A stretch of 43,940 nt of DNA from a virus: positions 1 to 43,940 of IMG/VR virus record IMGVR_UViG_3300032118_000017; one strand, given 5' to 3'. Position 1 is the first letter of the stretch; the number at the start of each line of letters is the position of its first letter. Positions 8,527 through 43,743 of the stretch are shown piece by piece. The translations under genes were made by a program, and so were the position numbers. The notes under the pieces were generated by a model. The model made no database searches. It worked only from the letters and a program-made list of their open reading frames with translations, and was not told the origin of the DNA.

Positions 8527-9464
8527 AGGCGATACCCCTGAAAAATGAGACTTTTCCCAAAAAGAAAGAGAAGGTGATTGTGACGGGTTGTGGAGGATTT
8601 ATAGGCTCTCACATGGTTGATTATCTTATTGAAAGGGGGTATGATGTCTATGGTCTTGATAGTTTTGAGATAGGTAAATTTAAGAATCTAAACCCGAAGC
8701 TTAAGTGGTTTGGAGTCAACCTATGCGACAAGAGGAACACATTGAACATCTTCAAGAGAATTAGGCCGCACTATGTCATACATCTAGCTGCATTTGCAAG
8801 GATACAACCCAGCCTAAAAGAACCAGACCTGTGGATAATCAACAATGTCTCTTCCACAATCAACGTCCTTTGCGCCAGCAAGCAAGTAAGAGCAAGGAAG
8901 GTCATCTACTCGTCCAGCAGTTCAGTCTATGGTGACAATAAAGTTCCTTTCATTGAGACCATGAAACCTGACATCAAGACACCCTATGCACTTTCTAAGT
9001 TGATGGGAGAGCAGATGTGCGAACTGTTTACTAAAGTATATGGTTTGCCATGTGTCATAGTAAGATACTTTAACGTCTATGGAAAGAGGCAGATAGATTC
9101 AGGGAAGTTCTCCACCGTGATAGGAGTGTTCATTAAAAGGAAAAGGGAAGGCAAGAAACTAAGGATTACAAACTTAGGTCGGAACAAGAGGGACTTCACT
9201 TACATAGACGATATAGTTAGAGGCACTTACTTGGCTTTAAAATATGGTCGTAATGGTGAGGTCTATAACTTGGGTTGCGGGACTAATTACAGTTTGAACT
9301 ACTTAGCTACGCTTATACAACCAAACAAGAAGATGCACACATATGGATTGGTCCGTAAGCAAGAAGCCTGGGAAACCAAAGCTGACATACAGAAATCTAT
9401 AAGAGAATTGGGATGGAAGCCCAAAGTAAGCCTTAAAGAGGGGATAAAGAAATGTATAAGATAA
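8490..9464 (+). CDS. NAD-dependent sugar-nucleotide epimerase (GalE/WbpP-like SDR)
   Basis: From the TTG at 8490 the product is 324 residues. The Rossmann motif TGCGGFIG is at residues 32-39, the serine strand YSSSSSVYGD at 140-149, and the catalytic pair in TPYALSK is Tyr166 and Lys170, intact here. RYFNVYGKRQ and RDFTYIDDIVRGTYLA are hallmarks of extended SDR epimerases. The start is uncertain: TTG overlaps the glycosyltransferase by 37 bases, and a GTG at 8574 just before the Rossmann strand is an alternative. The likely reaction is C4 epimerisation of a UDP-sugar. Confidence 0.85.
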   Translation: MGSPSSSVEVILKAIPLKNETFPKKKEKVIVTGCGGFIGSHMVDYLIERGYDVYGLDSFEIGKFKNLNPKLKWFGVNLCDKRNTLNIFKRIRPHYVIHLAAFARIQPSLKEPDLWIINNVSSTINVLCASKQVRARKVIYSSSSSVYGDNKVPFIETMKPDIKTPYALSKLMGEQMCELFTKVYGLPCVIVRYFNVYGKRQIDSGKFSTVIGVFIKRKREGKKLRITNLGRNKRDFTYIDDIVRGTYLALKYGRNGEVYNLGCGTNYSLNYLATLIQPNKKMHTYGLVRKQEAWETKADIQKSIRELGWKPKVSLKEGIKKCIR

Positions 9465-10375
9465 AGTTCCTCAAGCCAAACATACCTAAGATAGATGTAT
9501 CGGATATACTAGAGAGTGGAGAAGTTACTAACGGCAAGTATGTGAGGGAGTTGGAGAAACTTCTCTGTAAGATGCACCATGCCAAGTATGCTGTCTGTTT
9601 CAGTAGTGCTACTGCTTGCCTTCTTCTGTTGATGAAAGGGAATTACTATAACCATTGTATGCAGTCATTCACTTGGAAGACACCTAAGATTATAGCGGAA
9701 GAGATTTTGGGTGATGTTCCTGTTTATCTTGATATAGATAAGAACACATGGACTGTCCCAAAGAAGTATCAGAAGCAGATTAAGATACCTATGATTCTAA
9801 CAGCGACTCTTGGTAGAATACCTGATATAGTCTATCCCAAAAGGACCATTGTGGATGGGGCTACCAACGCTGGTTACTTTGACATGAAAAAACATCCATG
9901 TTTGGCTTTGATAGTCGGCTTCTCTCCATCCAAAATGATAACAGGAATAGAAGGCGGGGCAGTAATAACTAATTCCAAAAAGATATATACTAATTTGAAG
10001 GAACTCCAACCAAGCATGTTCCGCATGGGAGAGATAAACGCTATGATAGCTATATACAATCTGAAACTAGCCAAGGGATATAGAAGGCAGAAGGAAATAC
10101 TCTATCACATCTATAAAGACCGTTTGCCTTTCGCCAAGTTCCAGAAGATAGACAAGAACCATTCTCTTAATGAGATAGCCGCAGTCTTCCCTTTTAATGA
10201 AAAGCAATGGAAAGAAGTCGAGAAAGGCATGGAAGTCAGGAAGAGATACGACCCCAATGGGATAGGCAAGAACGCAGTCGAAGTCTATAAAGGAGTGATG
10301 AGCCTTCCCTCATACAGCGGTTGTGATTACAAAGGTGTGATTAGATTGTTAAGAAAGGTCTATTATGGCAAGTGA
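9452..10375 (+). CDS. DegT/DnrJ/EryC1-type sugar aminotransferase (short)
   Basis: A 307-residue member of the PLP-dependent sugar aminotransferases. SSATACL (51-57) matches the phosphate-binding SGTxAL region, DGATNAG (135-141) the aspartate that contacts the pyridine nitrogen, and FSPSKMITGIEGGAV (157-171) the internal aldimine, with Lys161. Family members are usually 360-400 residues, and the C-terminal lobe here looks reduced. It would aminate a 4-keto or 3-keto sugar nucleotide, which suits the dehydratase at 11518. It overlaps the epimerase by 13 bases. Confidence 0.8.
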   Translation: MYKIKFLKPNIPKIDVSDILESGEVTNGKYVRELEKLLCKMHHAKYAVCFSSATACLLLLMKGNYYNHCMQSFTWKTPKIIAEEILGDVPVYLDIDKNTWTVPKKYQKQIKIPMILTATLGRIPDIVYPKRTIVDGATNAGYFDMKKHPCLALIVGFSPSKMITGIEGGAVITNSKKIYTNLKELQPSMFRMGEINAMIAIYNLKLAKGYRRQKEILYHIYKDRLPFAKFQKIDKNHSLNEIAAVFPFNEKQWKEVEKGMEVRKRYDPNGIGKNAVEVYKGVMSLPSYSGCDYKGVIRLLRKVYYGK

Positions 10376-10613
10376 ATGGTTCGTAATCCTTGATTATCAT
10401 GGTCAGGGAAATGAGGTTTTGTTAAAGACAAAGAAGAAGGAAGAAGCCGAAAGGTTTACCAAGCAACTAATCAGCAAATTCAAGAAGATGAGAAAATGGG
10501 ACTTTATGACTTTTAAATGCTGGGATTTGAATCCCGCCACTTTTAGAGAAATATGGGTTGAGAAACAGTTGCCAAGAGAAAGAATAAACTGCATCTATAT
10601 GGAGGAAAAATGA
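10365..10613 (+). CDS. Hypothetical protein (82 aa)
   Basis: A small protein with strand-helix-strand character: SEWFVILDYHGQGNEVLLKT, then KKEEAERFTKQLISKFKKM, then MTFKCWDLN and an acidic end. The shape is that of a small alpha-beta sandwich, for example an ACT- or ferredoxin-like regulator. It is embedded between the aminotransferase and ATP-grasp genes with overlaps at both ends, so it probably acts with them. Not recognised. Confidence 0.65.
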   Translation: MASEWFVILDYHGQGNEVLLKTKKKEEAERFTKQLISKFKKMRKWDFMTFKCWDLNPATFREIWVEKQLPRERINCIYMEEK

Positions 10614-11521
10614 TTAGGGTTCTAGTTACAGGAGTTGGAGGTGGTGTCGGTCAGAGCATACTCAAATGCTTATATAAAAAGAACTATGAAGTCCATGCTG
10701 CTGATTGCAATCCTTGTTCTGCTGGGTTTCACTTTAAGAACGTGTCTAAGTTTGTAGTTCTGCCTCACTCATCCGATGATGATTATATAGAAGAGTTGAA
10801 CAAATACGTCAAGAAGAATAAGATTAATATAATCTGCATCGGTGGGGATGGGGAACTTGAAAGGCTTTCGGAAAACAAAGAATTGGTTGGATGCAAAGCC
10901 ATTGTCTCCAACCCCGATGTTGTTGGAATATCACTTGACAAGCAGAAGACATCTGATTTTTGCATCGAGAATAATATAAATCACCCAACATCAAACCCCA
11001 GGTCCTATCCTGTGATTGCCAAACCCAGGTTTGGATATGCGTCTAATGATGTATTCCCATGTTACAACGATGCCGAATTTTCAGCAGCCAAACAGTATAT
11101 GGAATCCAAAAGGATTGATTATATAGTCCAGAAGAAGATAATGGGCAGGGAGATAACCTGTGGGGCTGTCAAGGTTAATGGAAAACTAAATGGTATAATA
11201 ATGATGGAAAGGGAGATATACAAAGGCACAAGTTATAGAGTGAAGACGATAAGCGATGAGTGTATAATGAAATTCGTCATAGATGTGTGTAAGAAGTATG
11301 ACTTTGAAGGGCCTTGTAATATCCAACTTCTTGATGATGGCAAGAACATCTATCTTATGGAGATAAATTGTAGGTTCAGCGGATGCACATTCTTCAGGAG
11401 CCTATGTGGGTTCAATGATGTTGAGCAGTTGATTGAGCATTATATACACAAGAAGAAAATCATCTTCGATAAACCAAAGCACAAGATGTTCCTTAGATAT
11501 TGGAGCGAGGTTGTAATATGA
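10610..11521 (+). CDS. ATP-grasp family ligase (carbamoyl-phosphate-synthase-like)
   Basis: The N-terminal 90 residues form a pre-ATP-grasp Rossmann-like domain (VLVTGVGGGVGQSILKCL). SNPDVVGISLDKQKTSDFCI leads into the ATP-binding part: YPVIAKPRFGYASNDV carries the Lys that contacts ATP phosphates, DYIVQKKIMGREIT the adenine-side strand, and IYLMEINCRFSGCT the metal-binding E and N. Such proteins occur in polysaccharide clusters and may join an amino acid or carboxylate to an amino sugar. The substrate is not visible. It overlaps both neighbours by four bases. Confidence 0.8.
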   Translation: MIRVLVTGVGGGVGQSILKCLYKKNYEVHAADCNPCSAGFHFKNVSKFVVLPHSSDDDYIEELNKYVKKNKINIICIGGDGELERLSENKELVGCKAIVSNPDVVGISLDKQKTSDFCIENNINHPTSNPRSYPVIAKPRFGYASNDVFPCYNDAEFSAAKQYMESKRIDYIVQKKIMGREITCGAVKVNGKLNGIIMMEREIYKGTSYRVKTISDECIMKFVIDVCKKYDFEGPCNIQLLDDGKNIYLMEINCRFSGCTFFRSLCGFNDVEQLIEHYIHKKKIIFDKPKHKMFLRYWSEVVI

Positions 11522-12369
11522 AGTATTTCATTAGTGGAGCAACAGGTTCGATTGGTTCTATGATAGTCGATTATCTTGCAGAGAAGAAGCAGGATGTCAA
11601 GGGTTTGACACACAGCGAGTTCAGGACATTTGAAGCACAACAGAAGACTAGATGCGGCTCACTGGAGAAGAGGCTTAATGTGGATTATGTCATAGGGGAT
11701 ATTAGGGACAAGGACAAATTGGAGTTCGAGATGAGAGGATATGATATAGTGATTCATTGTGCCGCACTCAAGCACGTTTACCTCTGCTATGAGAATGCCA
11801 TCGAGTCAGTCAAGACCAACATAATCGGAACGCAGAATATAATAGAAGCAGCCATAAAGACGGGGATAAAGAAGGTTATATTAATCAGCACGGACAAGGC
11901 TGTGAATCCTATTAGTGTCATGGGAGCCACCAAGTTCATAGCCGAGAGATTGATTCTATCCGCCAACAATAATGGCAAGACTAAGTTCTCCGTAGTCAGA
12001 TTGGGAAATGTCGAGGGGACCTCTGGCTCTGTCATACCCATCTTCGAGAAGCAGATTAGAGAAGGTGGTCCTGTCACAGTAACCCATCCTGAGATGACTA
12101 GGTTTATGATGCACCCCTTAGATGTTGTCCGATTGATATTCAAAGCTTTAGGTATGATGGAAGGCGGGGAGATATTCGTGCCTAAGATGGATGAGATTAA
12201 GATACTCGACATGGCTAAGAAGATGATAGAAAGAAGAGAGCAACTTATTCCGACAGAAATTAAGATAGTAATCACAGGAATGAAGCCTGGGGAGAAGATA
12301 CACGAAGAACTCTTGACTCCCTCTGAAAGATATAAGGCCAAAGAAACTAAGGATATGTGGATAATATGA
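11518..12369 (+). CDS. UDP-GlcNAc 4,6-dehydratase-like SDR (PseB/CapE/FlaA1 family)
   Basis: From the ATG at 11518 the product is 283 residues. SGATGSIGSMI (6-16) is the nucleotide-binding motif. HCAALKHVYLCYENAIESVK, LISTDKAVNPISVMGATK (122-139) and VVRLGNVEGTSGSVIP are hallmarks of this family, as is GGEIFVPKMDEIKI followed by GMKPGEKIHEELL. The catalytic triad is Ser-Met-Lys (S124, M135, K139): the usual Tyr of short family members is Met, as known for the longer WbpM/CapD type. It would make a 4-keto-6-deoxy UDP-sugar, a fit substrate for the aminotransferase at 9452. Confidence 0.85.
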   Translation: MKYFISGATGSIGSMIVDYLAEKKQDVKGLTHSEFRTFEAQQKTRCGSLEKRLNVDYVIGDIRDKDKLEFEMRGYDIVIHCAALKHVYLCYENAIESVKTNIIGTQNIIEAAIKTGIKKVILISTDKAVNPISVMGATKFIAERLILSANNNGKTKFSVVRLGNVEGTSGSVIPIFEKQIREGGPVTVTHPEMTRFMMHPLDVVRLIFKALGMMEGGEIFVPKMDEIKILDMAKKMIERREQLIPTEIKIVITGMKPGEKIHEELLTPSERYKAKETKDMWII

Positions 12370-12659
12370 ACAGGGAAGTATCCCAGACCCTCAAGACTTT
12401 GAAGGAGATAGAGACATATCTGCAAGACAAAGAATTTCAAACGGATAAATTATCCGAGAAGGATATTTGTTTTAGTAAATTGAATCTCATACAAGAAATT
12501 AGGCAAGAAGCAATCAAATGGATTAAGGAATTAGATACAGGAAGCCATTATGAATATGAGATACAATATGATGATGGGGATTATGGAGAATCTACAGCAA
12601 GTAATGTGATAAACTGGATTAAACACTTCTTCAATATAACAGATAAGGAGTTAGAATGA
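12366..12659 (+). CDS. Hypothetical helical protein (97 aa)
   Basis: The ATG at 12366 overlaps the preceding TGA. The product is largely helical (SQTLKTLKEIETYLQDKEF, NLIQEIRQEAIKWIKELD) with an acidic middle (YDDGDYGESTAS) and a final helix (NVINWIKHFFNI). No family motif. It overlaps the glycosyltransferase start by four bases. Confidence 0.6.
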   Translation: MNREVSQTLKTLKEIETYLQDKEFQTDKLSEKDICFSKLNLIQEIRQEAIKWIKELDTGSHYEYEIQYDDGDYGESTASNVINWIKHFFNITDKELE

Positions 12660-14296
12660 AAGAAGGAATTGCTGATACGGCAATAATGATAAGTTCATTT
12701 AATAGGCGTGATTTCTTAAAGAACACGCTTGACAGCCTCTATAAGACAATACCCAGAGGCACTACTGTTTTAGTCGTGGATGACTGCTCTACTGACAACC
12801 CGAGGGAGATACTGAAGGACTATCCTGACTTAATCTTCCACCAGTTTACTGAGAACAAAGGTTTAAGGGCTGTTGTATCTTGGGGAATAGACTTCTTGAC
12901 TCAATTACCTATGACTAAATATATCTGCTATATGGAGAATGATGTCCTTCTTAAAGAGGGATGGCTTGAGAAATGTAAATCTTTATGGGAACAAGGAATA
13001 GAAGAAGATGTTCCTGTGGGACTAATTACTTGCCATAATTCCCCCGAACATCCATGTCCAGAAGAAACAAAGAAGGTATTGGATTTTAAGGAGACAATCC
13101 TGAAACCCACAGAGAGAAGCACACACCTATTCGCAAGCGTTGAACGATGGAAACTTTTCGGCAAGATACCAACCGAGAGACCAGTTGAACAGGGTGGCAG
13201 CCAGATAGATTGGTGGCTCATGGGGCATCCAACTAAATACGAACAGTCTGAACACTCCTTACGGAAGGAGAATGAATGGGTGGCTGTCATACCAGGATAC
13301 TGCTACCACATGGGGAATATAAGTTCAAGTTATGGGAAAATGCCTTTGCCTGAGATGGATGAGTTCGTGAATCTAATCTTCCCTTATCAGGACACAAGAA
13401 ATGACATCTGCTTCCAGTTCAATCCTATGGAAAATAAAGAATTCTGGAATCTCCCGAATAAACGAATCGGTGCTTTGTATATGTCCTGTAACGAGGAGAT
13501 GTATATAATGCAAAGTTTACTTTCCATCCAGAAATTAGTGGATTACATAGTTATAGCTGACAACTCAAGCACTGATAGGACCCTTGAGATGATAGAGAAG
13601 TTCAAAGCCCTAAAGGATAGTCCGCCTGTCTATGTCACTAATATGCCAAGAGATGAGAGTGAGATAATAGGTTATAACAGCCTTCTTGGTAGCCATATAG
13701 GTGGCGGGATAGATGTGATGAAGGAATATTTCGGTGGGGGCAAATGCGATTGGATGATACAGATGGAACCTGATTTAGTTCTTTATGAGATGCCAAATGA
13801 TGCTTTAAGGAAGGCAGCCACTTACTTGGAACTGAGAGGATTCAACTGTCTAAACGTCTTCATGCGTGACTTTGTGTATGACTATGCTCATTTAAATGCT
13901 GTGGATTATGGTGAGGGAGCAAGCAACTTCTACAGTGAGAGAAGGTTCTTCAAGGTAACTCCAAAGACAGGATATGCAGCACATAATTATCTCTGCCCAA
14001 GGAATGAAGGCTCTAAGGTTCCGACTTACTATAGGTTTTGGAATGAGTGGGCTGGTCTAGTGGCTAAGAGTAGATATATAAAGTTTGCACATTACGGCTT
14101 CTGCCGAGGTGTTGAGAGAATCCGTATGAGAAGTTATTTCAAGGTCAGCACACCTTTTGTCTTTTGGGATGAGAACGGATTTAAAGAACCAACTTGGATG
14201 CCATATGATGACATAAACCACGACAAGCAGACTACCTATCAGATTCCGACTATAATATATAAAGGAAAGCACCCGAAGTATATGTGCATCGATTGA
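12656..14296 (+). CDS. Two-domain glycosyltransferase (tandem GT-A domains)
   Basis: The 546-residue protein holds two family 2-like units. The first starts at TAIMISSFNRRDFLKNTLDS, with VVDDCSTD at 40-47 and the metal motif MEND at about 93-96. The second starts near residue 265 with RIGALYMSCNEEMYIMQSLL, then IVIADNSSTDRTLEMIEKF and DWMIQMEPDL as its metal-binding region. Both carry the D-D-x-S/N-S-T-D signature of GT-A nucleotide pockets. Tandem transferases can add two sugars in turn. It is the longest gene of the island. Confidence 0.85.
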   Translation: MKEGIADTAIMISSFNRRDFLKNTLDSLYKTIPRGTTVLVVDDCSTDNPREILKDYPDLIFHQFTENKGLRAVVSWGIDFLTQLPMTKYICYMENDVLLKEGWLEKCKSLWEQGIEEDVPVGLITCHNSPEHPCPEETKKVLDFKETILKPTERSTHLFASVERWKLFGKIPTERPVEQGGSQIDWWLMGHPTKYEQSEHSLRKENEWVAVIPGYCYHMGNISSSYGKMPLPEMDEFVNLIFPYQDTRNDICFQFNPMENKEFWNLPNKRIGALYMSCNEEMYIMQSLLSIQKLVDYIVIADNSSTDRTLEMIEKFKALKDSPPVYVTNMPRDESEIIGYNSLLGSHIGGGIDVMKEYFGGGKCDWMIQMEPDLVLYEMPNDALRKAATYLELRGFNCLNVFMRDFVYDYAHLNAVDYGEGASNFYSERRFFKVTPKTGYAAHNYLCPRNEGSKVPTYYRFWNEWAGLVAKSRYIKFAHYGFCRGVERIRMRSYFKVSTPFVFWDENGFKEPTWMPYDDINHDKQTTYQIPTIIYKGKHPKYMCID

Positions 14297-14926
14297 ATGA
14301 TTTACGGAAATCAAGACCCTAAAGAGATTGATGTCTTCTCTAATCCCATCACTGAGACTATGTTCTATAGGTATCTTCTCGCTTTGCATTGGTGTAGGGA
14401 TAAGGATGTTCTTGATGCAGCTTGTGGCTGTGGTTTCGGTTCTCATATACTAAAAACATTTGCCAAGACGGTGACAGGAATGGATATTGATGGGGCAGCC
14501 CTTGAATCTGCCGATAAGCAGTATCCGCATATCAAGTTCCTATGGCACGATATCAGGATAGAAAAGGATATAGGCAAGTTTGATGTCGTAGTTTCAATCG
14601 AGACCTTTGAGCATATCCCGAGGCATGAGATAATTAACTATCTAAATAACCTGAAAAGCTGGTGCAAGGAAGGCGGGACTATCTTCATAACAACCCCCCA
14701 GAGGCAGAACGCCTTTTGGGAGTATAACAAGAATGAATCACACCTTTACGAATATTCAGCGGAAGAGTTTGTTGATATAATTATGAGAAACATAAAGGGG
14801 GATTTTGCATTCATCGGATTGCAGGAGATAAAGATGGGTCAAGCAGGGCAATTGATTTCAGTCCTGACTCCTCTTATAAAAGAAGGTCATATAATGGTGG
14901 CGGTGATTGAGAATGTCAGACACTAA
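14297..14926 (+). CDS. SAM-dependent methyltransferase (class I)
   Basis: Motif I VLDAACGCGFGSHIL (residues about 36-50) binds S-adenosylmethionine, GMDIDGAALESA supplies the acidic ribose-binding residue, FDVVVSIETFEHI is motif IV, and GGTIFITTPQ is the later strand. This is a Methyltransf_11/25-like enzyme of the type that methylates glycans or lipid-linked sugars. It begins directly after the transferase stop and overlaps the deacetylase-like gene by 14 bases, so the genes are likely co-translated. Confidence 0.85.
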   Translation: MIYGNQDPKEIDVFSNPITETMFYRYLLALHWCRDKDVLDAACGCGFGSHILKTFAKTVTGMDIDGAALESADKQYPHIKFLWHDIRIEKDIGKFDVVVSIETFEHIPRHEIINYLNNLKSWCKEGGTIFITTPQRQNAFWEYNKNESHLYEYSAEEFVDIIMRNIKGDFAFIGLQEIKMGQAGQLISVLTPLIKEGHIMVAVIENVRH

Positions 14927-15551
14927 GTTCTATCTTTCAGTGGACTGCGATGATGTGAATCCTGGGAATTGTAGTTCTACCTCAGAGTTGGACTATCATT
15001 TGTATCAGTTATATTATAAGGGGTTTAGACCAACCATCTTCGTTCCCGCTTATTTTGAAGGGAAATACAATCTCTCTTTCCATCGTGAATGGGTAGAACG
15101 GGCAAAGGAATACTATGACATACAGGCTCATGGGTTGTTCCATGTAGGCGGCTATGGTGCTTGTGAGTTCCTTAAGACTGAAGGGGAACTTGAAGTCATT
15201 ATGACAGTCATGCAGGAGATATACAAATCAGTGGGAGTTTATCCTACAGTCCTAAGACCACCTGGATGGCTTCACAATGAGAACTTCGATTATTCAAAAT
15301 ACTTCAAGCACCTCTCGGTCCATGATGAGAAAGAGATTCAATATATCAACATCCATGAAATAACTAACAATCCACACGATTCTGAGCCAGCAAAGGAATT
15401 CGTCATCCTTCACTCTCATGCAGGTCCACCATCTGATAATGACTTAAGCAATCCAGAACTCTTTAAAAAGCTGTTAGAATGGCTAGAACTTTATAAAGGT
15501 CGATATATATATATAACAGTAGGAGAACTTTATGACAGAGTTAGAGGATAA
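14913..15551 (+). CDS. Polysaccharide-deacetylase-like (NodB fold) protein
   Basis: From the ATG at 14913: LSVDCDDVN (8-16) carries the catalytic Asp pair of NodB motif 1, AHGLFH (72-77) gives the H-x3-H metal site of motif 2, RPPGW is motif 3, and VILHSHAG near the end supplies the last histidine. The set is that of CE4-like esterases that remove acetyl groups from amino sugars. It would act on an N-acetylated residue of the glycan. A short, single-domain version without signal peptide, so it probably acts in the cytoplasm. Confidence 0.75.
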   Translation: MSDTKFYLSVDCDDVNPGNCSSTSELDYHLYQLYYKGFRPTIFVPAYFEGKYNLSFHREWVERAKEYYDIQAHGLFHVGGYGACEFLKTEGELEVIMTVMQEIYKSVGVYPTVLRPPGWLHNENFDYSKYFKHLSVHDEKEIQYINIHEITNNPHDSEPAKEFVILHSHAGPPSDNDLSNPELFKKLLEWLELYKGRYIYITVGELYDRVRG

Positions 15552-16119
15552 CGACAACAAAATAATATTAGAAGAATACTTTTGGCATGGTCATAAATAT
15601 ACAATAAAGAAGAAAGCGTGCCCTGACTGTGGCAAACATATTCGTAATTGCTCAAAGTTCTGCGTAACTTGTTCTAAGAAAGGTAGTAGAAATCCCTTTT
15701 GGAAAGAGGAAGGGAAGTGTAAAAGCAAACTAATAAGTTTCTGTAAGACCTGTGGAAAGAAGATTGTTTACCATCCTTCTAATAAAAGTGGAATTTATTG
15801 TTCTCAGAAATGTTATGACAAACATGGAGAACACAACCCCAAGTATGGTAAGGGGGACAAGATGATGGGTGATAATAATCCTAACTGGAGAGGTGGTCAT
15901 AGAGTCAAGAGTTATCGTGGATGGAATTGGAGAACCATAAGACTTGCTGTCCTTCAAAGAGATAATTACATCTGTCAGAAATGTGGAAGAAAGGATAAGC
16001 TTGTAGTTCACCATCTAAATCCTTGGAAGATTTCTAAAGACAATTCTCTCACAAACCTTGAAACCAGATGTAGGTATTGTCATGCGGAGGAAGGGAAATG
16101 GGAATTTCAGAACGCATAA
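15532..16119 (+). CDS. Zinc-finger HNH homing endonuclease (195 aa)
   Basis: Three CxxC pairs fill the N-terminal half (CPDCGKHI, CVTCSKKG, CKTCGKKI), then FCSQKCYDKHG-like residues, GDNNPNWRGGHR, and a C-terminal HNH core: RDNYICQKCGRK, LVVHHLNPWKISKDNSLTNL, CRYCHAEE. The NPNWRGG run-in and the core match the nuclease at 5261, so they are paralogues. It interrupts the glycan island between a deacetylase-like gene and a transferase and overlaps both. A mobile homing gene that may drive exchange of the cassette. Confidence 0.85.
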   Translation: MTELEDNDNKIILEEYFWHGHKYTIKKKACPDCGKHIRNCSKFCVTCSKKGSRNPFWKEEGKCKSKLISFCKTCGKKIVYHPSNKSGIYCSQKCYDKHGEHNPKYGKGDKMMGDNNPNWRGGHRVKSYRGWNWRTIRLAVLQRDNYICQKCGRKDKLVVHHLNPWKISKDNSLTNLETRCRYCHAEEGKWEFQNA

Positions 16120-16946
16120 GTTGGCATATTATCACAAGAGACCGACCCGAATATCTTGCAGTCTTACTTACTTCAATACTGAGACAAACATATAAGGAGT
16201 GGGATTTGATACTTGTAGATAATTCAGTTAAACCAATTCAAGAACACCCATTGATTCAGGTGATTGTGAATAGGATGCTTAACGAGGGACACCGAGTGAA
16301 ATATCATAGGGTAGACCCTAATATTAGAGATATTGGACAATTAAGAAATATCTGTATTGATGAAGATAATTGGAATAAGCTTGGTCTACGATGTGACGAT
16401 GACAGTTTTTGTGAACCTGATTACCTTGAACTGTTATATAAGTTTATACAACTCAAGGATTTGCAGGGGAGCTACATAGAGCAACCCGATGGCAAGGCAA
16501 TCCCAAGGGAAGGACATCGGGTAGGGGCTGTCGGGGGACTTGTCCCCTTTATGTGGATGGAGAAAACCTTTATGCCCCCAAGGGAGAAGTGCAATATAAT
16601 CAACGAGTTCTATGATTTAGAAGGTGAGTCAGACCAGTGTTACTTTTATAATGGAGTTGACTACATGGAAGCTGACCATTTAAGAAGTTCTTTCATGTAT
16701 TGGAATGAAGTCGCCAAGAAGATTAGACACCCAGAATGTTACGGAAAGACAGGATATAGGGAAGAAACTGATTTGACCTATCGGATGCGTTTGGCTGGCT
16801 ATAAGCTGTTCGTAGTCCCTGATGCTGTATGCTGGCACTTAGTCAGTCCCTATGGTGGTGGGCGTGATGAGAACACTGATATAAGAGCAGGGAATATTTA
16901 TACGTTTAAGAAGCGTATGAGCGAGGCTAAAAATGAACAAAACTAA
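16098..16946 (+). CDS. Family 2-like glycosyltransferase (GT-A)
   Basis: Starting at the ATG at 16098, behind GGAGGAAGGGA, the product is 282 residues. WHIITRDRPEYLAVLLTSIL and LILVDNSVKP begin the GT-A fold, GLRCDDDSFCEPDYLELLY contains the DDD metal-binding motif, and YREETDLTYRMRLAGYKLFV is the acceptor-side ED/Q-RW-like region. The C-terminal DAVCWHLVSPYGG often ends such enzymes. The start overlaps the nuclease gene by 22 bases. Confidence 0.85.
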   Translation: MGISERISWHIITRDRPEYLAVLLTSILRQTYKEWDLILVDNSVKPIQEHPLIQVIVNRMLNEGHRVKYHRVDPNIRDIGQLRNICIDEDNWNKLGLRCDDDSFCEPDYLELLYKFIQLKDLQGSYIEQPDGKAIPREGHRVGAVGGLVPFMWMEKTFMPPREKCNIINEFYDLEGESDQCYFYNGVDYMEADHLRSSFMYWNEVAKKIRHPECYGKTGYREETDLTYRMRLAGYKLFVVPDAVCWHLVSPYGGGRDENTDIRAGNIYTFKKRMSEAKNEQN

Positions 16947-17592
16947 AATTGAATGGACAGATTTCACATGGAATCCAATCACAGGATGCTCTTACGGATG
17001 TTGGTATTGCTACGCCAAGAAAATGTTCACAAGATTCCACAGAAGCTTTGAACCGACATTCCATCCAGAAAGGTTATCTGAGCCTTCAAATCTAAAGAAG
17101 CCGTCAAGGATATTCTGCTGTTCCGTATCTGACATATATGCTGATTGGACTAAGCCTGAGTGGAGAGATGCCGTGATAGATGTGATAAAAAGGAATCCGC
17201 AGCACACATTCCAACTGCTCACGAAACAACCTCAAAATATAAATACTGAGCCATTGCCAAACCTTTGGGTAGGGACAACGATAACAGGCGATAATGAGAT
17301 GGAAAATATGTATTCCCTTGTGAATAACTATAAAGGATTGAAATTCCTTTCGTTTGAACCTTTCCTGAGTCCTGTCTCATTCTCACAGCTTGATGGATAT
17401 ATGGATAAAATAAATTGGATAATAATCGGAAAACTGACAGGGGCAAAGAAAGTCCCTCTTGATAAAGAGGGTGTAGGATACATAATCAGGGAAGCCAGAA
17501 GAAGGAATATACCATTATTCTTGAAGAATAACCTGAATTGGGAAGAGAAAATACAAGAGTTTCCAGGGGGTTCGGGGGAACGTCCCCAATAA
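16933..17592 (+). CDS. DUF5131 (phage Gp37/Gp68-like) radical-SAM-type protein
   Basis: The N terminus TKIEWTDFTWNPITGC is the hallmark of DUF5131. The cysteines of CSYGCWYC (19, 23 and 26) form the CxxxCxxC iron-sulphur motif of radical SAM enzymes. NLWVGTTITGDNEM, KFLSFEPFLSPV and NWIIIGKLTGA follow in the family order, and GVGYIIREARRRNIPLFLK ends the barrel. Members occur in many phages, but the reaction is not known. The family usually has a longer C terminus. Here it is embedded in the glycan island between two transferases, so a link with glycan or lipid modification is possible but unproven. Confidence 0.85.
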   Translation: MNKTKIEWTDFTWNPITGCSYGCWYCYAKKMFTRFHRSFEPTFHPERLSEPSNLKKPSRIFCCSVSDIYADWTKPEWRDAVIDVIKRNPQHTFQLLTKQPQNINTEPLPNLWVGTTITGDNEMENMYSLVNNYKGLKFLSFEPFLSPVSFSQLDGYMDKINWIIIGKLTGAKKVPLDKEGVGYIIREARRRNIPLFLKNNLNWEEKIQEFPGGSGERPQ

Positions 17593-17604
17593 GAGGATGA
17601 AAGA

Positions 17605-18597
17605 ATGTTCGTCTTTACAGAAGACTTAAAGTCTCAGACAGGTTACGGAGTAGTTGTTAGAAATCTATATAAAGCTTTAGGTAAGTATATGGAAGTTCAA
17701 TGCGGCACAGAATTTGAAGAAAGATTCATCAAAGCATTGACGAAGGATGACTTCATTTTAGTGCGTCCTTTCTTTCAGAACCCCTTTAGATTCAACACAG
17801 AAGCCCAAATCATAGGCCACTATGCTTTGGAGTCAACTAAACTCCCTGAACGCCTGGTTAGAGAGTGTAATGATGACAGAATGGTTCAAGTATGGGTTCC
17901 ATCTAATTATGTTAAGTCGATTGCCGTAAGTAATGGGATTATAGAAGATAAGTTAAAAGTCATTCCACATGGATACAATCCAGACATCTTCCATGATTAT
18001 ACTGAACATTTCAGGAAGAATGAGAATTTCCAATTCCTTTTCGTTGGTGGATATACAGGCAAAGGAGATAGAAAAGGTGCTGATTTGATAGCAGAAGCGT
18101 CTAGACTATTGTATGGACATACTACACAACCCTTTGTGGTCAAGTTTAAGATAAACACAACATATGGTGTTAACTATACAGAAATATATCAAGATTTAGC
18201 TGCACCTCATCATATACTCGACTTTGAGAACTATCCAGATGAGAAGATGGGAGATATATACAATTCAGCAGATTGCTTCATAACAGCCAGTTCAGGGGAG
18301 GCTTTTAACATGACTCTTTTAGAGGCTATGGCTTGCGGTCTTCCAGCTATCTCTCCACTTAATACAGGTGAACGAGATTTCGCTACTCAAATTGATTATC
18401 CACTTTTAGAATTCCAAGAGGTTCCAGCAAGATACACTCCTTGGGATAATGGTAATTGGTTCAGACCCGATATAGGGGAGATAAAAGACAAAATGAACGC
18501 TGTTATAAAGGCGATGCCTGTTAGACGTTCTTATAATCTAGTTGGATATACATGGGATGAAGTAGCCAAGAAGGTTGTTGAATGCTTGAATGGTTAG
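17605..18597 (+). CDS. GT4-type glycosyltransferase (GT-B fold)
   Basis: The 330-residue product has the N-terminal acceptor domain (DLKSQTGYGVVVRNLYKALG), a middle VIPHGYNPDIF, the donor-domain strand FQFLFVGGYTGKGDRKG with the basic residues that contact the phosphates, and SSGEAFNMTLLEAMACGLPA, the E-x7-E motif of family 4. It uses a UDP- or GDP-sugar donor. Its TGYGxVxRNL start is shared with the transferase at 20740 on the other strand, so these are related. GAGGATGA precedes the ATG. Confidence 0.85.
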   Translation: MFVFTEDLKSQTGYGVVVRNLYKALGKYMEVQCGTEFEERFIKALTKDDFILVRPFFQNPFRFNTEAQIIGHYALESTKLPERLVRECNDDRMVQVWVPSNYVKSIAVSNGIIEDKLKVIPHGYNPDIFHDYTEHFRKNENFQFLFVGGYTGKGDRKGADLIAEASRLLYGHTTQPFVVKFKINTTYGVNYTEIYQDLAAPHHILDFENYPDEKMGDIYNSADCFITASSGEAFNMTLLEAMACGLPAISPLNTGERDFATQIDYPLLEFQEVPARYTPWDNGNWFRPDIGEIKDKMNAVIKAMPVRRSYNLVGYTWDEVAKKVVECLNG

Positions 18598-29227: not shown

Positions 29228-29568
29228 CAGCCTTTCTGGTTTTTTAGCTTCTCTTCCGTTTTCTTCAGGGCTTTCTCGGCTTCCTCTTCAGTCATCCAAC
29301 CCATTATTATTGGCAACTTCGCTAGGATTTGATTGAAGTATAGCGCAACGAACCCATCCACGTCTTCATCAGACCAATCTGGATAAGACCGTTTAACTAT
29401 CTCCTTCTCAATCTCAGTCAAAGTAGTCACTTCTTTTTCTCCCCAGTCCTCTGGTTTCTTTGATTGTATGGATGTTATCTTCGCTATCGCTATTGCTGGG
29501 GGAGTCTTCAGAGTGAAGTCTTCGCCTTCTCCCTTGATTACTGTCTTTCTTTCAAACCTTGACATCAT
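29227..29568 (-). CDS. Tail assembly chaperone, G-like
   Basis: A 113-residue, mostly acidic protein (FTLKTPPAIAIAKITSIQSK, TLTEIEKEIVKRSYPDWSDE, WMTEEEAEKALKKTEEKLK). It is found between the tail tube genes and the tape measure, the usual place for chaperone G, with a -1 slippery site near its 3' end that leads to the T-like frame. Such proteins bind tape measure and tube subunits during tail assembly and are not in the virion. ATG overlaps the preceding stop. Confidence 0.75.
   Translation of the reverse strand: MMSRFERKTVIKGEGEDFTLKTPPAIAIAKITSIQSKKPEDWGEKEVTTLTEIEKEIVKRSYPDWSDEDVDGFVALYFNQILAKLPIIMGWMTEEEAEKALKKTEEKLKNQKG
29239..29245 (-). promoter_or_regulatory. -1 ribosomal frameshift slippery site A AAA AAC
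   Basis: In the minus strand, the end of the chaperone gene reads CTA AAA AAC CAG AAA GGC TGA. The heptamer A AAA AAC lies in the exact X XXY YYZ phase. A -1 shift gives Lys-Pro-Glu-Arg-Leu and then joins the following frame at its Met without a stop. The fused product would be about 182 residues. The heptamer is a classical site. Confidence 0.75.
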
Positions 29569-30059
29569 TAAACGATAGGTGTAGTGCTTCTGTTGCTTGT
29601 GTATTGTCTTCTAAAATCTTTAGGAAGGCATTTCCAACTAAATGTTTCTTCCATTGAGTCGGTAGTCGCAGCCTTTAATCCAACATTTGTGACAAGAGAA
29701 CTTAGGCAACTTATCTTCATCTGTGCCGCTGTTGTTGCTGTTGTATCTGTCCAAACACCGAATATGTTGTATCTCGTTCTAGGCCATTTATTTATTGCCG
29801 AACCTGTGGTGAGTGCATGTGAACCACCCAATAACATCGTGGAGAAGAGTGCGTCAGAACCTATGGCTGTGGCTGTAAATTCAAACATATTAGTGTTCTT
29901 GTGGTCATGCTCCTCATAGCCACCCATTGTTCTTAATAGTTCTGTATCTCTCTCCCCACCTGCTTGGGTAAAGTCTTTCACATAACCTTCAGCGTTCTGT
30001 TGTAAAGCATTACCAAGACCACTTATCACAAGGCTACCATCTTCCATTCGCCATACCAT
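29568..30059 (-). CDS. Tail tube protein, copy 2 (163 aa)
   Basis: It starts MVWRMEDGSLVISGLGNALQ and contains GYVKDFTQAGGERDTELLRT, FEFTATAIGS, MKISCLSSLVTNVGLKA and KWPRTRYNIFG. It matches the protein at 30069 in nearly every segment, by eye about half of all residues. Both are of a size expected for a tail tube subunit, and both have GGTGAT before the ATG. Two copies may form different parts of the tube or one may end it. Confidence 0.7.
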   Translation of the reverse strand: MVWRMEDGSLVISGLGNALQQNAEGYVKDFTQAGGERDTELLRTMGGYEEHDHKNTNMFEFTATAIGSDALFSTMLLGGSHALTTGSAINKWPRTRYNIFGVWTDTTATTAAQMKISCLSSLVTNVGLKAATTDSMEETFSWKCLPKDFRRQYTSNRSTTPIV

Positions 30060-30068
30060 AAAATCACC

Positions 30069-30569
30069 TTAAACTATTGGAGAGCCTGTTCTGTTCTGCG
30101 TGTATTGCTTTTTGTAATTCATAGGTAGGCATTTCCAAGTTATAGTCTCTTCTGCCGAATCAGTATTAGTCGCCTTGAATCCTGTGTTTGTAACATAAGC
30201 ACTCAAGCAACTAATTTTCATCATTGGACCAGCAGTTGATGTGGAATCTGCGAATATCAAGTGGAAATCATACATTGTCCTTGGCCACTTTTCCACAGCA
30301 GAACCCATGAACTGCCCTGTGGTTACTGAACCACCAAGCAACATCATCTCGAATGTCGCTGTGGAACCAATTGCAGTCGCATTAAATTCAAAGGCATTCG
30401 TGTTCTTTGGGTCCCAATATTGATAGTTGCCCATTGTCCTGAGTAATTCAGCATCCCTTTCACCACCTGCTCTTGTAACATCCTTTATATATCCCTCAAA
30501 GTTTCCAGCCAAGATAGTGCTTGGTATGCCAGAAATTATGAGAGAACCATCTTCCATTTTCCAAACCAT
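30069..30569 (-). CDS. Tail tube protein, copy 1 (166 aa)
   Basis: MVWKMEDGSLIISGIPSTIL and later GYIKDVTRAGGERDAELLRT, FEFNATAIGSTATFEMMLLG, VEKWPRTMYDFHLIF and MKISCLSAYVTNTGFKA. It is the paralogue of the gene that follows. The shared end (CLPMNYKKQYTQNRTGSPIV against CLPKDFRRQYTSNRSTTPIV) shows that the whole gene was duplicated. The assignment as tube rests on position between tail completion and chaperone genes. Confidence 0.7.
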   Translation of the reverse strand: MVWKMEDGSLIISGIPSTILAGNFEGYIKDVTRAGGERDAELLRTMGNYQYWDPKNTNAFEFNATAIGSTATFEMMLLGGSVTTGQFMGSAVEKWPRTMYDFHLIFADSTSTAGPMMKISCLSAYVTNTGFKATNTDSAEETITWKCLPMNYKKQYTQNRTGSPIV

Positions 30570-30573
30570 ATAA

Positions 30574-31077
30574 TCACCTTAAGATTTTATTTGCGGTCTC
30601 TTCGACCATTTTCTCCATTTTTTGAATAGTATCAAATGCAGCATCTTCCATGAAATGTTTCGCAGGAACGGTTATCGAAGCACCAGGATTCCTTACAGAA
30701 ATCCCTTCTCCAGAGTGACCACCGCCAGCAGTCCCTCCGCCTCGCATCACTGTTCCAGCAGGAACAAAACTCCGTCCAGGCCATGTCTTGCCATATTCCT
30801 GAACCATAGCATAGACGATGTGTCCGCCACCTACCCTAACTCTCCATTCCTCTGGCTTCTGTTGGTATGCCAAAATGGAAGCAGCCAACCGTCCTGTCTG
30901 AGGAGCAGTCCTCTTTGATGAGTATCTACTCTTCAGGAATCGTTTTGCTTGGTTCTGGGTATTCTTAGCAAACTTCTCATTAAGTTTATTGGATTCTATC
31001 GGCATCCTAATCGTAACCTGTTTTGTAAAGTTTATCATAGCATCCAATCCTTCAACCTTTACGTTAATTGTCGGCAT
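30574..31077 (-). CDS. HK97 gp10-like neck/tail-completion protein
   Basis: A 167-residue protein. ITFKxQ-type N terminus (VKVEGLDAMINFTKQVTIRM), then AKNTQNQAKRFLKSRYSSKR, TGRLAASILAYQQ and VYAMVQEYGKTWPGRSFVPA: in HK97 gp10-like proteins the order is a helix, T-G-x-L-x-x-S-I and then YAxxxEYGT. The C-terminal part ends AKHFMEDAAFDTIQKMEKMV, again as in that family. It would connect head and tail or stabilise the tail terminator. Confidence 0.75.
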   Translation of the reverse strand: MPTINVKVEGLDAMINFTKQVTIRMPIESNKLNEKFAKNTQNQAKRFLKSRYSSKRTAPQTGRLAASILAYQQKPEEWRVRVGGGHIVYAMVQEYGKTWPGRSFVPAGTVMRGGGTAGGGHSGEGISVRNPGASITVPAKHFMEDAAFDTIQKMEKMVEETANKILR

Positions 31078-31535
31078 TATAATTCCGCCTTAACCCTTAT
31101 AGGTATAATAGAAGTATGAATCTTGTTAAGTCGGTCAATGACATTCACATCAGTTCCTCCTGCTCCAACGAAAAGGTCTCGCAAGCCACTCGCAAGGAGG
31201 TCTCCTCTTTTCGTGATTAGGGCGTTCTGGACGGCTGAATTGACGGTATCCCTCTGATTGGCACTCTTTGTATAGGTTGTAACCGTGCTAATTAGGTCGA
31301 AGTGCCTGGTTCCGATACCCATAGTCATATTATTAGAATCTGATTGAAAGCTATCTATAGTAATGATTGGGAATCCTGGGAATTGACTTTCCTTTCCCAC
31401 CTGGATGTCAGGATAATCGGCAAATATCCACCGAGAGCCGCCTCTTGAAGAGGGGTCTAACACATTACCAGAAATAACATTATACACTACTTGCCAACAT
31501 CTATTAAAGATGTCGCTTCCGACAAACCCTGTCAT
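31077..31535 (-). CDS. Tail terminator/completion-like protein (152 aa)
   Basis: An alpha-beta protein (NRCWQVVYNVISGNVLDPSS, FPGFPIITIDSFQSD, HFDLISTVTTYTKSANQRDT, NKIHTSIIPIRVKAEL) of the shape of tail terminators, with the hallmark of a helix, then strands of a small sheet. It overlaps the gp10-like gene by one base. Its start stands at the end of a structured non-coding leader. Confidence 0.6.
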   Translation of the reverse strand: MTGFVGSDIFNRCWQVVYNVISGNVLDPSSRGGSRWIFADYPDIQVGKESQFPGFPIITIDSFQSDSNNMTMGIGTRHFDLISTVTTYTKSANQRDTVNSAVQNALITKRGDLLASGLRDLFVGAGGTDVNVIDRLNKIHTSIIPIRVKAEL

Positions 31536-31776
31536 CTTTCACCCCTCTCTTGAGGTTAAATTGTCAGACCTCTCTCGGTCAATTATGACCTTGGGTCGCT
31601 GCCTAACAACCCAAGGGAGTATATACAACACACGAAAGTGTGAGGCGTTATCTGTCCTGTTGCAACAGCATAAAGCAGGAAGTGGAGGGTCGTTCAAGAC
31701 CCTCTCAGAACTTCCTTTACCCGTTCTTAGGATTTTCCCGCTAAGATTGACTTCTTTAATCTTTTATTTAAGCTAC
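31536..31776 (-). ncRNA. Structured non-coding leader or RNA with at least six hairpins
   Basis: The segment holds no plausible gene. Stems (plus coordinates): TCTTAG/CTAAGA 31725-31746; a nested hairpin AGGAAGT + GAGGGTC with their complements 31677-31716; palindrome CTGTTGCAACAG 31657-31668; CACAC-GAAA-GTGTG 31629-31642; CCTTGGGT/ACCCAAGG with 12-base loop 31589-31616; GGTCA/TGACC 31577-31590 as an alternative to GACC/GGTC 31567-31580. The late-like element at 31759-31777 would start a transcript close to 31743, at the first hairpin. It may be a leader that controls the tail genes, or an independent RNA. Confidence 0.55.
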
Positions 31777-31777
31777 T
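31759..31777 (-). promoter_or_regulatory. Late-promoter-like element, copy 1
   Basis: ATCTTTTATTTAAGCTACT on the plus strand, identical to 41097-41115 and 42538-42556. On the minus strand it is AGTAGCTTAAATAAAAGAT with a TTAAATA core. It directly follows the head-closure stop and is at the beginning of the structured segment. Confidence 0.6.
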
Positions 31778-32112
31778 TACGACTCAATAAGGGCCAATAA
31801 ATCAGCTTCTATGTGATGGATGGTTCCAGAGATAAGAATCTGAATCACATTCCTCATCCCATACCACTGGAAGTTATATAGAATCTTGTTCCCATCCTTA
31901 ATCTTGCTGCTGTCTGTAGCTTTAAAGAAACCTATCGCATCCTTCTCTTCCAAACTACCGCTTTTCAGGTCTTGGTCGAAGTTCCTACTAGGAACTATCC
32001 AAGCCGTTATGGTTGAGTCCGAGTTGGATTCGGTTGCATCCCCGTTATCGTTATATGTTCTTGTTATCTCTCTCACGGTTACGCTAGTCCCTACATCCGC
32101 TATTATCGTCAT
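31777..32112 (-). CDS. Head-closure-like protein (111 aa)
   Basis: A small beta-barrel-like protein (SVTVREITRTYNDNGDATES, STITAWIVPSRNFDQ, GFFKATDSSKIKDGNKILYN, WYGMRNVIQILISGTIHHIE), a layout typical of head-closure/stopper proteins: paired strands, then 'IxDGD..' and a final strand. It is preceded by GGTGA. The gene is separated from the adaptor and capsid genes by the fibre block, which is not usual. Confidence 0.65.
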   Translation of the reverse strand: MTIIADVGTSVTVREITRTYNDNGDATESNSDSTITAWIVPSRNFDQDLKSGSLEEKDAIGFFKATDSSKIKDGNKILYNFQWYGMRNVIQILISGTIHHIEADLLALIES

Positions 32113-32120: not shown

Positions 32121-33272
32121 TTATGCTATTACAGCCTTGATGACTGCAAATCTTAATACTATCGCTTCTGATAAGCTTCCTGCCGTGTTATTCCTAACAC
32201 TTATTTTAAACGAACCTGCTGCTGGGGTGTTAGGCATTATTGTATAACCGCCTGTTGTTCCTACAGAATCATGTTGAACATGAATCACGTCAGTAGCCGC
32301 AACTGTGCTATTCGTAACTGTGAAAGTCACTATAGTCGCAGCAGCCAAAGCCGCACCATTCATTATAACCGTCCCACAAGTCTTATTCAAAGTCACTCCA
32401 GTTGACTTGCTTGTTGCCTGTGTTATAGTTCCACCTGCGCCTGTGGTATAACCTATTCCAGCAGTCCCAGATGAAGTCAATGCCCCTGTCGCTGCTAAAC
32501 TCGTTCCTGTAGCCGCACCTATCACTGGTGTTGTTAAGGTAATCCCAGCAAGCGTCTCAGCAGCACTCGCCCTATTTAAAGCATGGGCAGTTGTCCCGAT
32601 ATACATTGTGCTGCTGTTAGCGGAGTTATCACCTGTGTTTACACCAGTTGCAAACTTATGTGTGGTGGAAGTATCATCTAAATCATCAGGAGTTAAGACT
32701 ATGTTTGTCGAAAGAGCCTTTGTATTTACTGTTGTTGTAGTGGGAACATAATTGACTGAATGTTTCGTGTTATCATGTGTCTGTGATGGCGCATTTCCAG
32801 AACTGTCAAAGTTATGAACTGAAACAGTGCTTCCAGCATGGGTTGTAATGGCTGTTTGTGTTATGAAAGTCGGGTGGTTGTAAGTCGATTCATGTGTATT
32901 TACTGGATTCGTTGGAGTCCCATGAGTATGGTCTCCCCTTGAATAGGGGGTTCCGCTTCCAGCATTTGAATTTATGCCAAATGTCGTTTCCCCAAACACT
33001 GTATCAGAGGGTGTCCCTCCTCCTTGTGGTGATGTGGGTGTCCCATGTGTATGGTCGCCTCTGCTATAGTTGCTTAAGACTCCAGCAGTAGGGGTAATAT
33101 CCCATGTTGTTTCACTTACCACGCTATTTGAGGGTATGTTACTCGAACTCCCCGTGCTTATGCTTTCCACGAAATCAGTCAATTGGTCTATTATTCCAGA
33201 TGCCTTATCCCTATAGATTTGTCTGGCATTCAATGAATTTAAGTTGGTTTTTATCTCTTCTATAGTAGTCAT
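32121..33272 (-). CDS. Tail fibre protein with DHTHG motifs (383 aa)
   Basis: The N-terminal half contains three related stretches, SNYSRGDHTHGTPTSP, GTPYSRGDHTHGTPTNP and a preceding VVSETTWDITPTAG against VFGETTFGINSNAG, as in many phage fibres, where DHTHG-like motifs may bind metal. The C-terminal half (SSGTAGIGYTTGAGGTITQA, TGVTLNKTCGTVIMNGAALA, NNTAGSLSEAIVLRFAVIKA) is a widespread tip domain of fibre proteins. It is likely to attach to the host surface. It overlaps the next fibre gene by four bases. Confidence 0.8.
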   Translation of the reverse strand: MTTIEEIKTNLNSLNARQIYRDKASGIIDQLTDFVESISTGSSSNIPSNSVVSETTWDITPTAGVLSNYSRGDHTHGTPTSPQGGGTPSDTVFGETTFGINSNAGSGTPYSRGDHTHGTPTNPVNTHESTYNHPTFITQTAITTHAGSTVSVHNFDSSGNAPSQTHDNTKHSVNYVPTTTTVNTKALSTNIVLTPDDLDDTSTTHKFATGVNTGDNSANSSTMYIGTTAHALNRASAAETLAGITLTTPVIGAATGTSLAATGALTSSGTAGIGYTTGAGGTITQATSKSTGVTLNKTCGTVIMNGAALAAATIVTFTVTNSTVAATDVIHVQHDSVGTTGGYTIMPNTPAAGSFKISVRNNTAGSLSEAIVLRFAVIKAVIA

Positions 33273-37419: not shown

Positions 37420-37803
37420 TTAAGTTGTAGGTTCTGTCTTCCCAGCTTGAATCCTCGCACCGCCAAGCATCTGTATCGAGTTGTTAGCCAGTTGCATGAA
37501 GTATTCAAGCTGTTGGTTAATCCCTGCTGCTTCGGTATTCTTGTTGATGCTCATCCTTCCAGCAGAATAGGAAACTCCGACATTGCTCATATAGCCGAGT
37601 ATGTAGACAGCAGCCAGATTGGATATTGCTGGAACAAAACCGCTGCCAATATCGGTAAATGAGCTAATCGTCTCTCCTGTAATCGTCTGGACATCTTGAG
37701 CCGCATCCTCCGCATACTGGTAAATGACAGCACTACCAACCTCTGTGGGAATATCCTTGACTCTATTCTGAACCCTAGATACTACTTCCCACAGGGTTGT
37801 CAT
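37420..37803 (-). CDS. Head-tail adaptor-like protein (127 aa)
   Basis: A helical protein: TTLWEVVSRVQNRVKDIPTE, then AVIYQYAEDAAQDVQTITGE, then AISNLAAVYILGYMSNVGVS. A helix bundle with a 'dA..dV...TG' stretch is the pattern of gp6/gp15-like adaptor proteins that bind the portal. It lies after the capsid genes. The assignment is moderate. Confidence 0.6.
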   Translation of the reverse strand: MTTLWEVVSRVQNRVKDIPTEVGSAVIYQYAEDAAQDVQTITGETISSFTDIGSGFVPAISNLAAVYILGYMSNVGVSYSAGRMSINKNTEAAGINQQLEYFMQLANNSIQMLGGARIQAGKTEPTT

Positions 37804-40793: not shown

Positions 40794-41095
40794 ACCACCT
40801 GTTTCTTATTATTATTACTTTCAGGCGAATGCGGGGTTGCTGGAAATGTAACATCCCTCGCCTGTGTCTTAAGGATGTAATCCCTCTGCCAATTCGCCAT
40901 CCTGTCAGTGAGTTTGGAAGCATCAAGTTCTGTGACCTTCCTCTTGCACTGGCAGGTATAATCAATGATATAACCAGGAACCCTATATGATGTCCCGCAT
41001 TGAGAACACTTGATTATCTTCTCTTCGGAACTAGAGTGCTGGGTTAAACCAGCCTTCTGGTCTATATTGCTTAACAAACTATTAAGGCTTTTCAT
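40790..41095 (-). CDS. Zinc-ribbon protein between portal and protease genes (101 aa)
   Basis: KIIKCSQCGTSYRVPGYIID followed by YTCQCKRK gives two cysteine pairs, a zinc ribbon, then a helical KLTDRMANWQRDYILKTQAR and a disordered end. It follows the portal gene and overlaps the protease by four bases. Perhaps an accessory of head assembly, or for DNA. Confidence 0.65.
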   Translation of the reverse strand: MKSLNSLLSNIDQKAGLTQHSSSEEKIIKCSQCGTSYRVPGYIIDYTCQCKRKVTELDASKLTDRMANWQRDYILKTQARDVTFPATPHSPESNNNKKQVV

Positions 41096-41096
41096 A

Positions 41097-41115
41097 ATCT
41101 TTTATTTAAGCTACT
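41097..41115 (-). promoter_or_regulatory. Late-promoter-like element, copy 2
   Basis: Identical in 19 bases to the copies at 31759 and 42538. It includes the last codons and the TAA of the portal gene. Its TTAAATA core is only about ten bases before the ATG at 41095, so a transcript from here would begin inside that gene and serve the protease. Confidence 0.5.
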
Positions 41116-42537: not shown

Positions 42538-42556
42538 ATCTTTTATTTAAGCTACT
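42538..42556 (-). promoter_or_regulatory. Late-promoter-like element, copy 3 (portal promoter)
   Basis: Minus strand AGTAGCTTAAATAAAAGAT, of which the TAG is the stop of the preceding basic protein. The CTTAAATA core (42544-42551) is centred about 26 bases before the portal ATG, which suits a leaderless message. This is the best-placed copy. Confidence 0.65.
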
Positions 42557-42731
42557 TGATTATTATCCAGAATTTCCTTTTTCTCAGGGACTTCTCAGGG
42601 TGCTGTTCCTGAGTCTCTAGGTAGTTCTTTAATTTAGCTTTCTCGGCATATTTCTTGCCATAGCCTTTGTGACGTTTATTGAACTTCCGTTGTCTCTCTC
42701 GGTTTCTTCTTTTTTTCTTTATCCAATACAT
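42552..42731 (-). CDS. Small basic protein (59 aa)
   Basis: From the ATG at 42731, behind AGGAG, the product is MYWIKKKRRNRERQRKFNKR, then HKGYGKKYAEKAKLKNYLET. It is strongly basic and helical, like a DNA- or RNA-binding peptide, and distantly like the protein at 42879. An upstream ATG at 42803 would add 24 residues and overlap the zinc-ribbon gene more deeply. Confidence 0.55.
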   Translation of the reverse strand: MYWIKKKRRNRERQRKFNKRHKGYGKKYAEKAKLKNYLETQEQHPEKSLRKRKFWIIIK

Positions 42732-43443: not shown

Positions 43444-43743
43444 GGTTAGGGTTTGGGGTTTACCCCTATTACTTTTACCATAGGAATTTTTAATTGTTTT
43501 TACTCCTTTAATCTAATATAAATTTTTGACTGTACCAACCACCTTTCGTCTAGGCATACGGGGGTATAGGAAAGTATCTAAGTATGTAAGTATATGATAT
43601 ATCTACATATATAAATACTTTACTAAGCGACACTAACGACACTAACGCCAGAGGTATAGTATGAGTAAGGAAGTATAGAAACCTTGGTTTCTGTATATAG
43701 TTATTGTTATGATAAGTAATAGATACATAGATTACCTTATACG

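Follow-up and report, generated by a model that had tools for sequence, protein, structure and literature searches.

Hexaloop hairpins with compensated stems at the start of a predicted tail-terminator gene in most likely archaeal tailed viruses

What is held in a strongly folding gap between two tail genes of a tailed virus: a leader of the gene that follows, or a separate RNA? The question is raised by positions 31536-31776 of the window, by which we mean the whole 43,940-nt stretch of DNA that was analysed. In this 43.9-kb virus record one gene block lies on the plus strand and the virion block on the minus strand, and genes for a portal, an HK97-type major capsid protein (MCP), a head-protease-like protein and a terminase were recognised. 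The plus strand also carries a large sugar cassette (5845-18597) with epimerases, a DegT-type aminotransferase, an ATP-grasp protein, a Polysacc_synt_2 dehydratase, a methyltransferase and several glycosyltransferases, as well as two free-standing HNH endonuclease genes (5261-5848 and 15532-16119). A 59-nt imperfect palindrome (78%) is situated at 43567-43625, near the right end of the record.

The gap is flanked by the minus-strand genes 31777-32112 and 31077-31535. The AlphaFold2 model of the 152-aa product of 31077-31535 (pLDDT 74) matched T5 p142, lambda gpU and the HFTV1 tail among PDB structures in Foldseek. Together with weak PHROG tail-terminator matches and the position of the gene, this model identifies the product as a predicted tail terminator of the SPP1 gp17/lambda gpU type. 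Judged by position, gene 31777-32112 probably encodes an HK97 gp10-like tail completion protein, placed like HFTV1 gp27, as the HFTV1 order of connector, gp10-like and gp17-like genes is also the order in the window. Orthologues of this gene are present in the related viral records L017, L019, L021 and L022. On the same strand, the adjacent related genes 29568-30059 and 30069-30569 (within 29553-30582; about 66% DNA identity) perhaps encode duplicated tail-tube proteins.

Both strands of the gap were folded, and each is significantly more stable than its dinucleotide shuffles, with minimum free energies of -72.8 (plus) and -76.5 kcal/mol (minus) and z-scores of -3.60 and -3.58; none of 200 shuffles folded as well on either strand. 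The multi-hairpin segment reported by the first-pass annotation is thus real, and its stems lie where they had been placed. Its fold strength is unusual but not unique in the genome, since a 220-nt interval starting at 31561 ranks fourth on the minus and eighth on the plus strand among about 1,090 GC-corrected intervals per strand. The largely coding segment 37601-37860 (minus), which comprises the start of gene 37420-37803 and the preceding sequence and has its long stems within the coding region, folds better than the gap (z -4.69).

On the minus strand we distinguish five stems, P1 (31725-31746), P2 (31678-31715), P3 (31657-31668), P4 (31629-31642) and P5 (31589-31616). P2 corresponds to the nested stem of 14 pairs described before, in the form of 7+7 pairs if 31677/31716 are counted, and P3 is the expected 12-base palindrome, CTGTTGCAACAG. 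The GAAA tetraloop that had been pointed out does exist in P4 when the plus strand is read, but it is irrelevant to a sense strand that is the minus strand, where the loop is UUUC. The minus strand carries the operon as well as the promoter and the part of the gap that is conserved. P5 has 12 pairs including G-U, and the 41-nt piece around it (31577-31617) reaches a fold z-score of -4.45, compared with -2.89 for the P1-P4 region (31615-31745). Between P4 and P5, TATATA at 31620-31625 (minus) is a possible second TATA box (T2), judged from its letters alone.

The first-pass annotation knew of no named RNA family for the segment, and Rfam 15 agrees, with no match at the gathering threshold in the whole window. 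At E-values of up to 5 only a chance match to BaMV_CRE outside the gap appeared; the L021 locus gave no Rfam match either. ARAGORN found no tRNA or tmRNA genes in the window. Two open reading frames cross the gap, one of 96 aa on the plus strand (31510-31800) and one of 52 aa on the minus strand (31539-31697), neither of which matches Pfam.

The window DNA shows no direct homology to phages. Used as single-protein queries, the tail terminator and the MCP found no relative and the portal found one; useful relatives came from a portal alignment and then an MCP alignment, the latter yielding 32 viral loci. Genome contigs gave nothing. Fourteen related records hold the tail-terminator gene. A scan with gene 32121-33272 (minus) was discarded as a route to relatives, because it matched only a mobile C-terminal domain. 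Over its C-terminal ~90-120 residues this protein shares 58-79% identity with cyanophage proteins and with proteins from unrelated viral contigs, though the rest of the virus looks archaeal; this domain is mobile and perhaps host-binding.

The best match of the TerL is HGTV-1 (Halogranum tailed virus 1), the portal matches HRTV-27 (Halorubrum tailed virus 27) and the MCP of a relative matches only haloarchaeal tailed viruses. Furthermore, words such as TATATAT and TTATATA are over-represented in the intergenic gaps of the family, while sigma-70 sites occur at shuffle level without excess. Based on these matches and on the TATA-rich gaps, the virus is most likely an archaeal tailed virus. MCM is absent from the relatives and PCNA gave only a sub-threshold match in one of them, so that hallmark genes leave the host unsettled.

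At the upstream end of the gap, a 21-nt TATA-like sequence, AGTAGCTTAAATAAAAGATTA, lies at 31757-31777 (minus), recurs exactly at 41095-41115 and with 20 of 21 nt at 42538-42557. The copy at 42538-42557 is likely the portal promoter, as it is situated some 25 nt upstream of the portal start and the relatives have TATA boxes at a similar distance; sequence and spacing at this copy and in the relatives fit an archaeal TATA box, which is expected about 26 nt upstream of where transcription begins. By analogy, 31757-31777 is a plausible archaeal promoter with a predicted transcript start at about 31741. The late-promoter-like element of the first-pass annotation thus gains indirect support from the repeat and its portal copy, although it reads as an archaeal TATA box with a predicted start about 25 nt further downstream. 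Among viral contigs the exact string hit three unrelated ones, which is about chance level. Many operons and an internal promoter have been documented for the archaeal tailed virus HFTV1 (PMC12542753).

The same gap measures only 58-62 nt in L017, L019 and L022 and consists of promoter and hairpin only, while in L021 it is 215 nt long and holds a 38-aa ORF. In the window, about 180 nt of stems P1-P5 stand at this place. P1-P5 make up a window-specific insert, and no homologue of them was found in any sequence searched, including 61 loci (1.17 Mb). The leader seems to tolerate insertions. The free-standing 38-aa ORF of L021 (16935-17048) has its own hairpin of the kind described below abutting its ATG, and its product matches only the last 37 positions of NrdD, the anaerobic ribonucleotide reductase (PF13597, 45.6 bits).

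What the relatives do share lies at the 3' end of the gap. Hairpin B, ACCUC[AAGAGA]GGGGU (31541-31556, minus; loops are bracketed), overlaps the Shine-Dalgarno sequence GGUGA with its 3' arm and stops 5 nt short of the AUG at 31535, and hairpin A, GACC[GAGAGA]GGUC (31567-31580, minus), is a tandem copy upstream of it. Among 14 viruses, 8 have hairpins with a RARMGA hexaloop upstream of the orthologous gene, a count in which the window is included and the near-identical L039 is left out; hairpin B therefore has counterparts in loop class and position in seven other viruses. The carriers, all within 60 nt before the tail-terminator gene, are L017, L019, L021, L022, L034, L037, L038/L039 and the window. 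By comparison, 3,000 sets of dinucleotide shuffles, maximised over all loop centres, reached at most 5 of 14 leaders, and one of 500 draws of 14 leaders from other genes reached 6.

The loops read AAGAGA, GAGAGA, AAGCGA or AAACGA, and the stem varies from virus to virus. The first-pass annotation had tied its case to compensatory changes in relatives, and for hairpins A and B these are present: across 18 hairpins, all five stem pairs show them. The covariation score is 0.876 compared with 0.219 after shuffling and at most 0.214 when slid, on a set (A7) that was picked by looking for stems and hence favours pairing. Most of this selection bias is avoided by counting RARMGA hexamers closed by at least three Watson-Crick pairs, which make up 11 of 18 in leaders but, outside them, 29 of 803 on the same strand of these contigs, with a loop consensus still learned from the same leaders. 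Since the loop is only modestly enriched genome-wide (AAGCGA hairpin plus ATG, p = 1.5e-3), the case rests on position and covariation; the count of tandem loops over all contigs is not outstanding.

With regard to position, each of the 14 start-proximal copies ends 0-11 nt before the AUG, and 11 of them overlap or adjoin a Shine-Dalgarno match. Tandem copies occur in the window, L017, L034, L037 and L040 (twice). The hairpin also stands before other genes, at 4589 and 7415 in L036, at 3895 and 6939 in L040, and at 12149 in L039, the orthologue of window gene 29227. L021 has one copy before the tail terminator and another before the preceding, internal 38-aa ORF; as two consecutive start codons each have a copy and one of them is internal, the hairpin follows translation starts and not promoters.

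The RARMGA loop is absent from 6 of the 14 orthologous leaders (L036, L040, L024, L031, L041 and L042). In L036 and L040 the tail-terminator gene abuts or overlaps the upstream ORF. The other four carry small hairpins with other loops at the same start site, namely GAUC[AGAC]GAUC in L024, ACC[AUGCU]GGU in L031, UUGAC[AUUAUU]GUCAA in L041 (as L059) and CUCC[GGCU]GGAG in L042 (as L058), which are perhaps divergent versions. The RARMGA hairpin was not found in the haloarchaeal HFTV1 and HRTV-4, no clear Shine-Dalgarno lies within the hairpin in L017 and L021, and three-pair stems are weak on their own. From thermodynamics alone, the probability that hairpin B forms is about 0.7 in the long leader, compared with about 0.4-0.65 where the leader is shorter; these values make a stabilising partner plausible. 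In the long leader the alternative pairing GGUCA-UAAU-UGACC competes with hairpin A (probability 0.2-0.4 compared with about 0.6) and may be considered a candidate switch, read from one sequence only.

The earlier proposal of a structured leader of the tail genes is consequently supported for the 3' part, since seven other viruses have hairpins of this loop class, with compensated stems, ahead of the same gene; P1-P5 were found in no relative. The finding is real and in part better than first thought; it concerns a smaller part of the segment, on the strand opposite to the noted tetraloop. The hairpin overlaps or abuts the ribosome-binding site and joins a constant loop to a compensated stem, as translational operators do. 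We therefore give a probability of roughly one half to the reading that the gap is the structured leader of a late mRNA, whose start-proximal hairpins would serve as translational operator for a candidate RNA-binding protein. RNA would be started near 31741 by the TATA-type promoter at 31757-31777, run into the tail-terminator gene at 31535 and present two RARMGA hexaloop hairpins at the ribosome-binding site. A constant loop on a freely changing stem may reflect selection by a sequence-specific RNA-binding protein as the presumed ligand. The last GA of the loop and the 3' arm usually make the Shine-Dalgarno GAGG(U), which would be masked, and translation reduced, once the hairpin is bound or stabilised; we infer that control is by repression and not by activation. 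A virion part needed in few copies might have its amount tuned in this way, and the 180-nt insert P1-P5, which lengthens the leader, may modulate it.

The rival that survives best is a passive leader element, which we consider unlikely. Here a 5'-proximal stem-loop, like that in the T7 gene 10 leader, would protect the late mRNA or present the Shine-Dalgarno favourably, with no trans-acting regulator. It is in line with the common Shine-Dalgarno overlap and with L019 and L022, where a TATA box 28-29 nt before the hairpin would put it at the extreme 5' end of the mRNA. However, such an element needs no fixed loop, and the loop is the most constant part even in upstream tandem copies off the Shine-Dalgarno; moreover, the L021 copy is internal to the transcript.

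The constant loop, variable stem, several tandem copies and location at gene borders might also mark a cleavage or processing site at which a viral or host endonuclease separates late mRNAs, yet the tight spacing of 0-11 nt to the AUG is not expected of a border mark. We know of no nuclease with a RARMGA loop as its site and regard this reading as improbable. Equally improbable is an independent small RNA gene formed by the whole segment or by P1-P5: although it would account for the TATA-like element, the dense structure and the lack of an ORF of known family, a U-rich terminator is missing from the minus strand ahead of the tail gene, and P1-P5 have no homologue in any relative, the relatives keeping promoter and hairpin only. 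Tandem hairpins with a conserved loop near a promoter would suit an antitermination site of the kind seen in lambda nut boxB or HK022 put, but the hairpins keep a set distance from the AUG rather than from the promoter; together with the internal L021 copy this makes such a site very improbable. Least probable of all is a plus-strand feature, either an antisense RNA or the 96-aa ORF 31510-31800: the open frame exists and plus-strand folding is strong, but Pfam has no match and the start-codon link, the Shine-Dalgarno and the conserved loop are on the minus strand only.

Returning to the translational operator, the hairpins exist, keep their position and covary in their stems, and the constancy of the loop across distant relatives, with matched stem changes, points to a switch, not listed before, that would act on the translation of virion genes. 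A wider version, more doubtful in our opinion, would be a regulon in uncultivated archaeal tailed viruses in which one protein binds tandem RARMGA hairpins at selected virion-gene starts, the window virus having added a folded sensor domain of 180 nt. In a limited literature search, no cis-acting element that controls translation was found described for archaeal tailed viruses. The hairpin, with its 16 nt, can serve as bait to fish out a presumed binding protein, and the single and double mutations that should have an effect can be predicted from its loop and stem.

Several known systems invite comparison. Lambda boxB (nut) is a hairpin with a GNRA-like pentaloop near a promoter that works with boxA and an N-type protein. 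The RARMGA hairpins share with boxB and HK022 put the conserved small loop, the variable stem and the tandem, promoter-proximal arrangement, but differ in loop length and sequence and in a position tied to the start codon, which sets the hexaloop outside the boxB/nut class. In the thrS-type operators of E. coli, tandem hairpins exert translational control by tRNA mimicry. Two similar loops in series, the second beside the Shine-Dalgarno, are found here as well, whereas no tRNA mimicry was recognised in the gap hairpins and the genes are virion genes. The phage-associated GOLLD and ROOL are likewise structured RNAs in a virus-linked context, but they are far larger (PMC12286853), and the gap is without an Rfam match. 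A levivirus coat operator proper, which an RNA phage encodes and its coat protein binds, is ruled out by the HK97-type capsid, portal and TerL of a dsDNA tailed virus. That operator is a small start-codon hairpin with conserved loop bases and a replaceable stem, which covers the ribosome-binding site. Phage M is a levivirus named with a coat-protein operator hairpin of the MS2/PP7 type (PMC3561173). The RARMGA hairpin resembles the levivirus operator in its place at the start codon, its conserved loop, its replaceable stem and its cover of the ribosome-binding site; unlike it, it is found in dsDNA tailed, probably archaeal viruses, often in tandem and before several genes.
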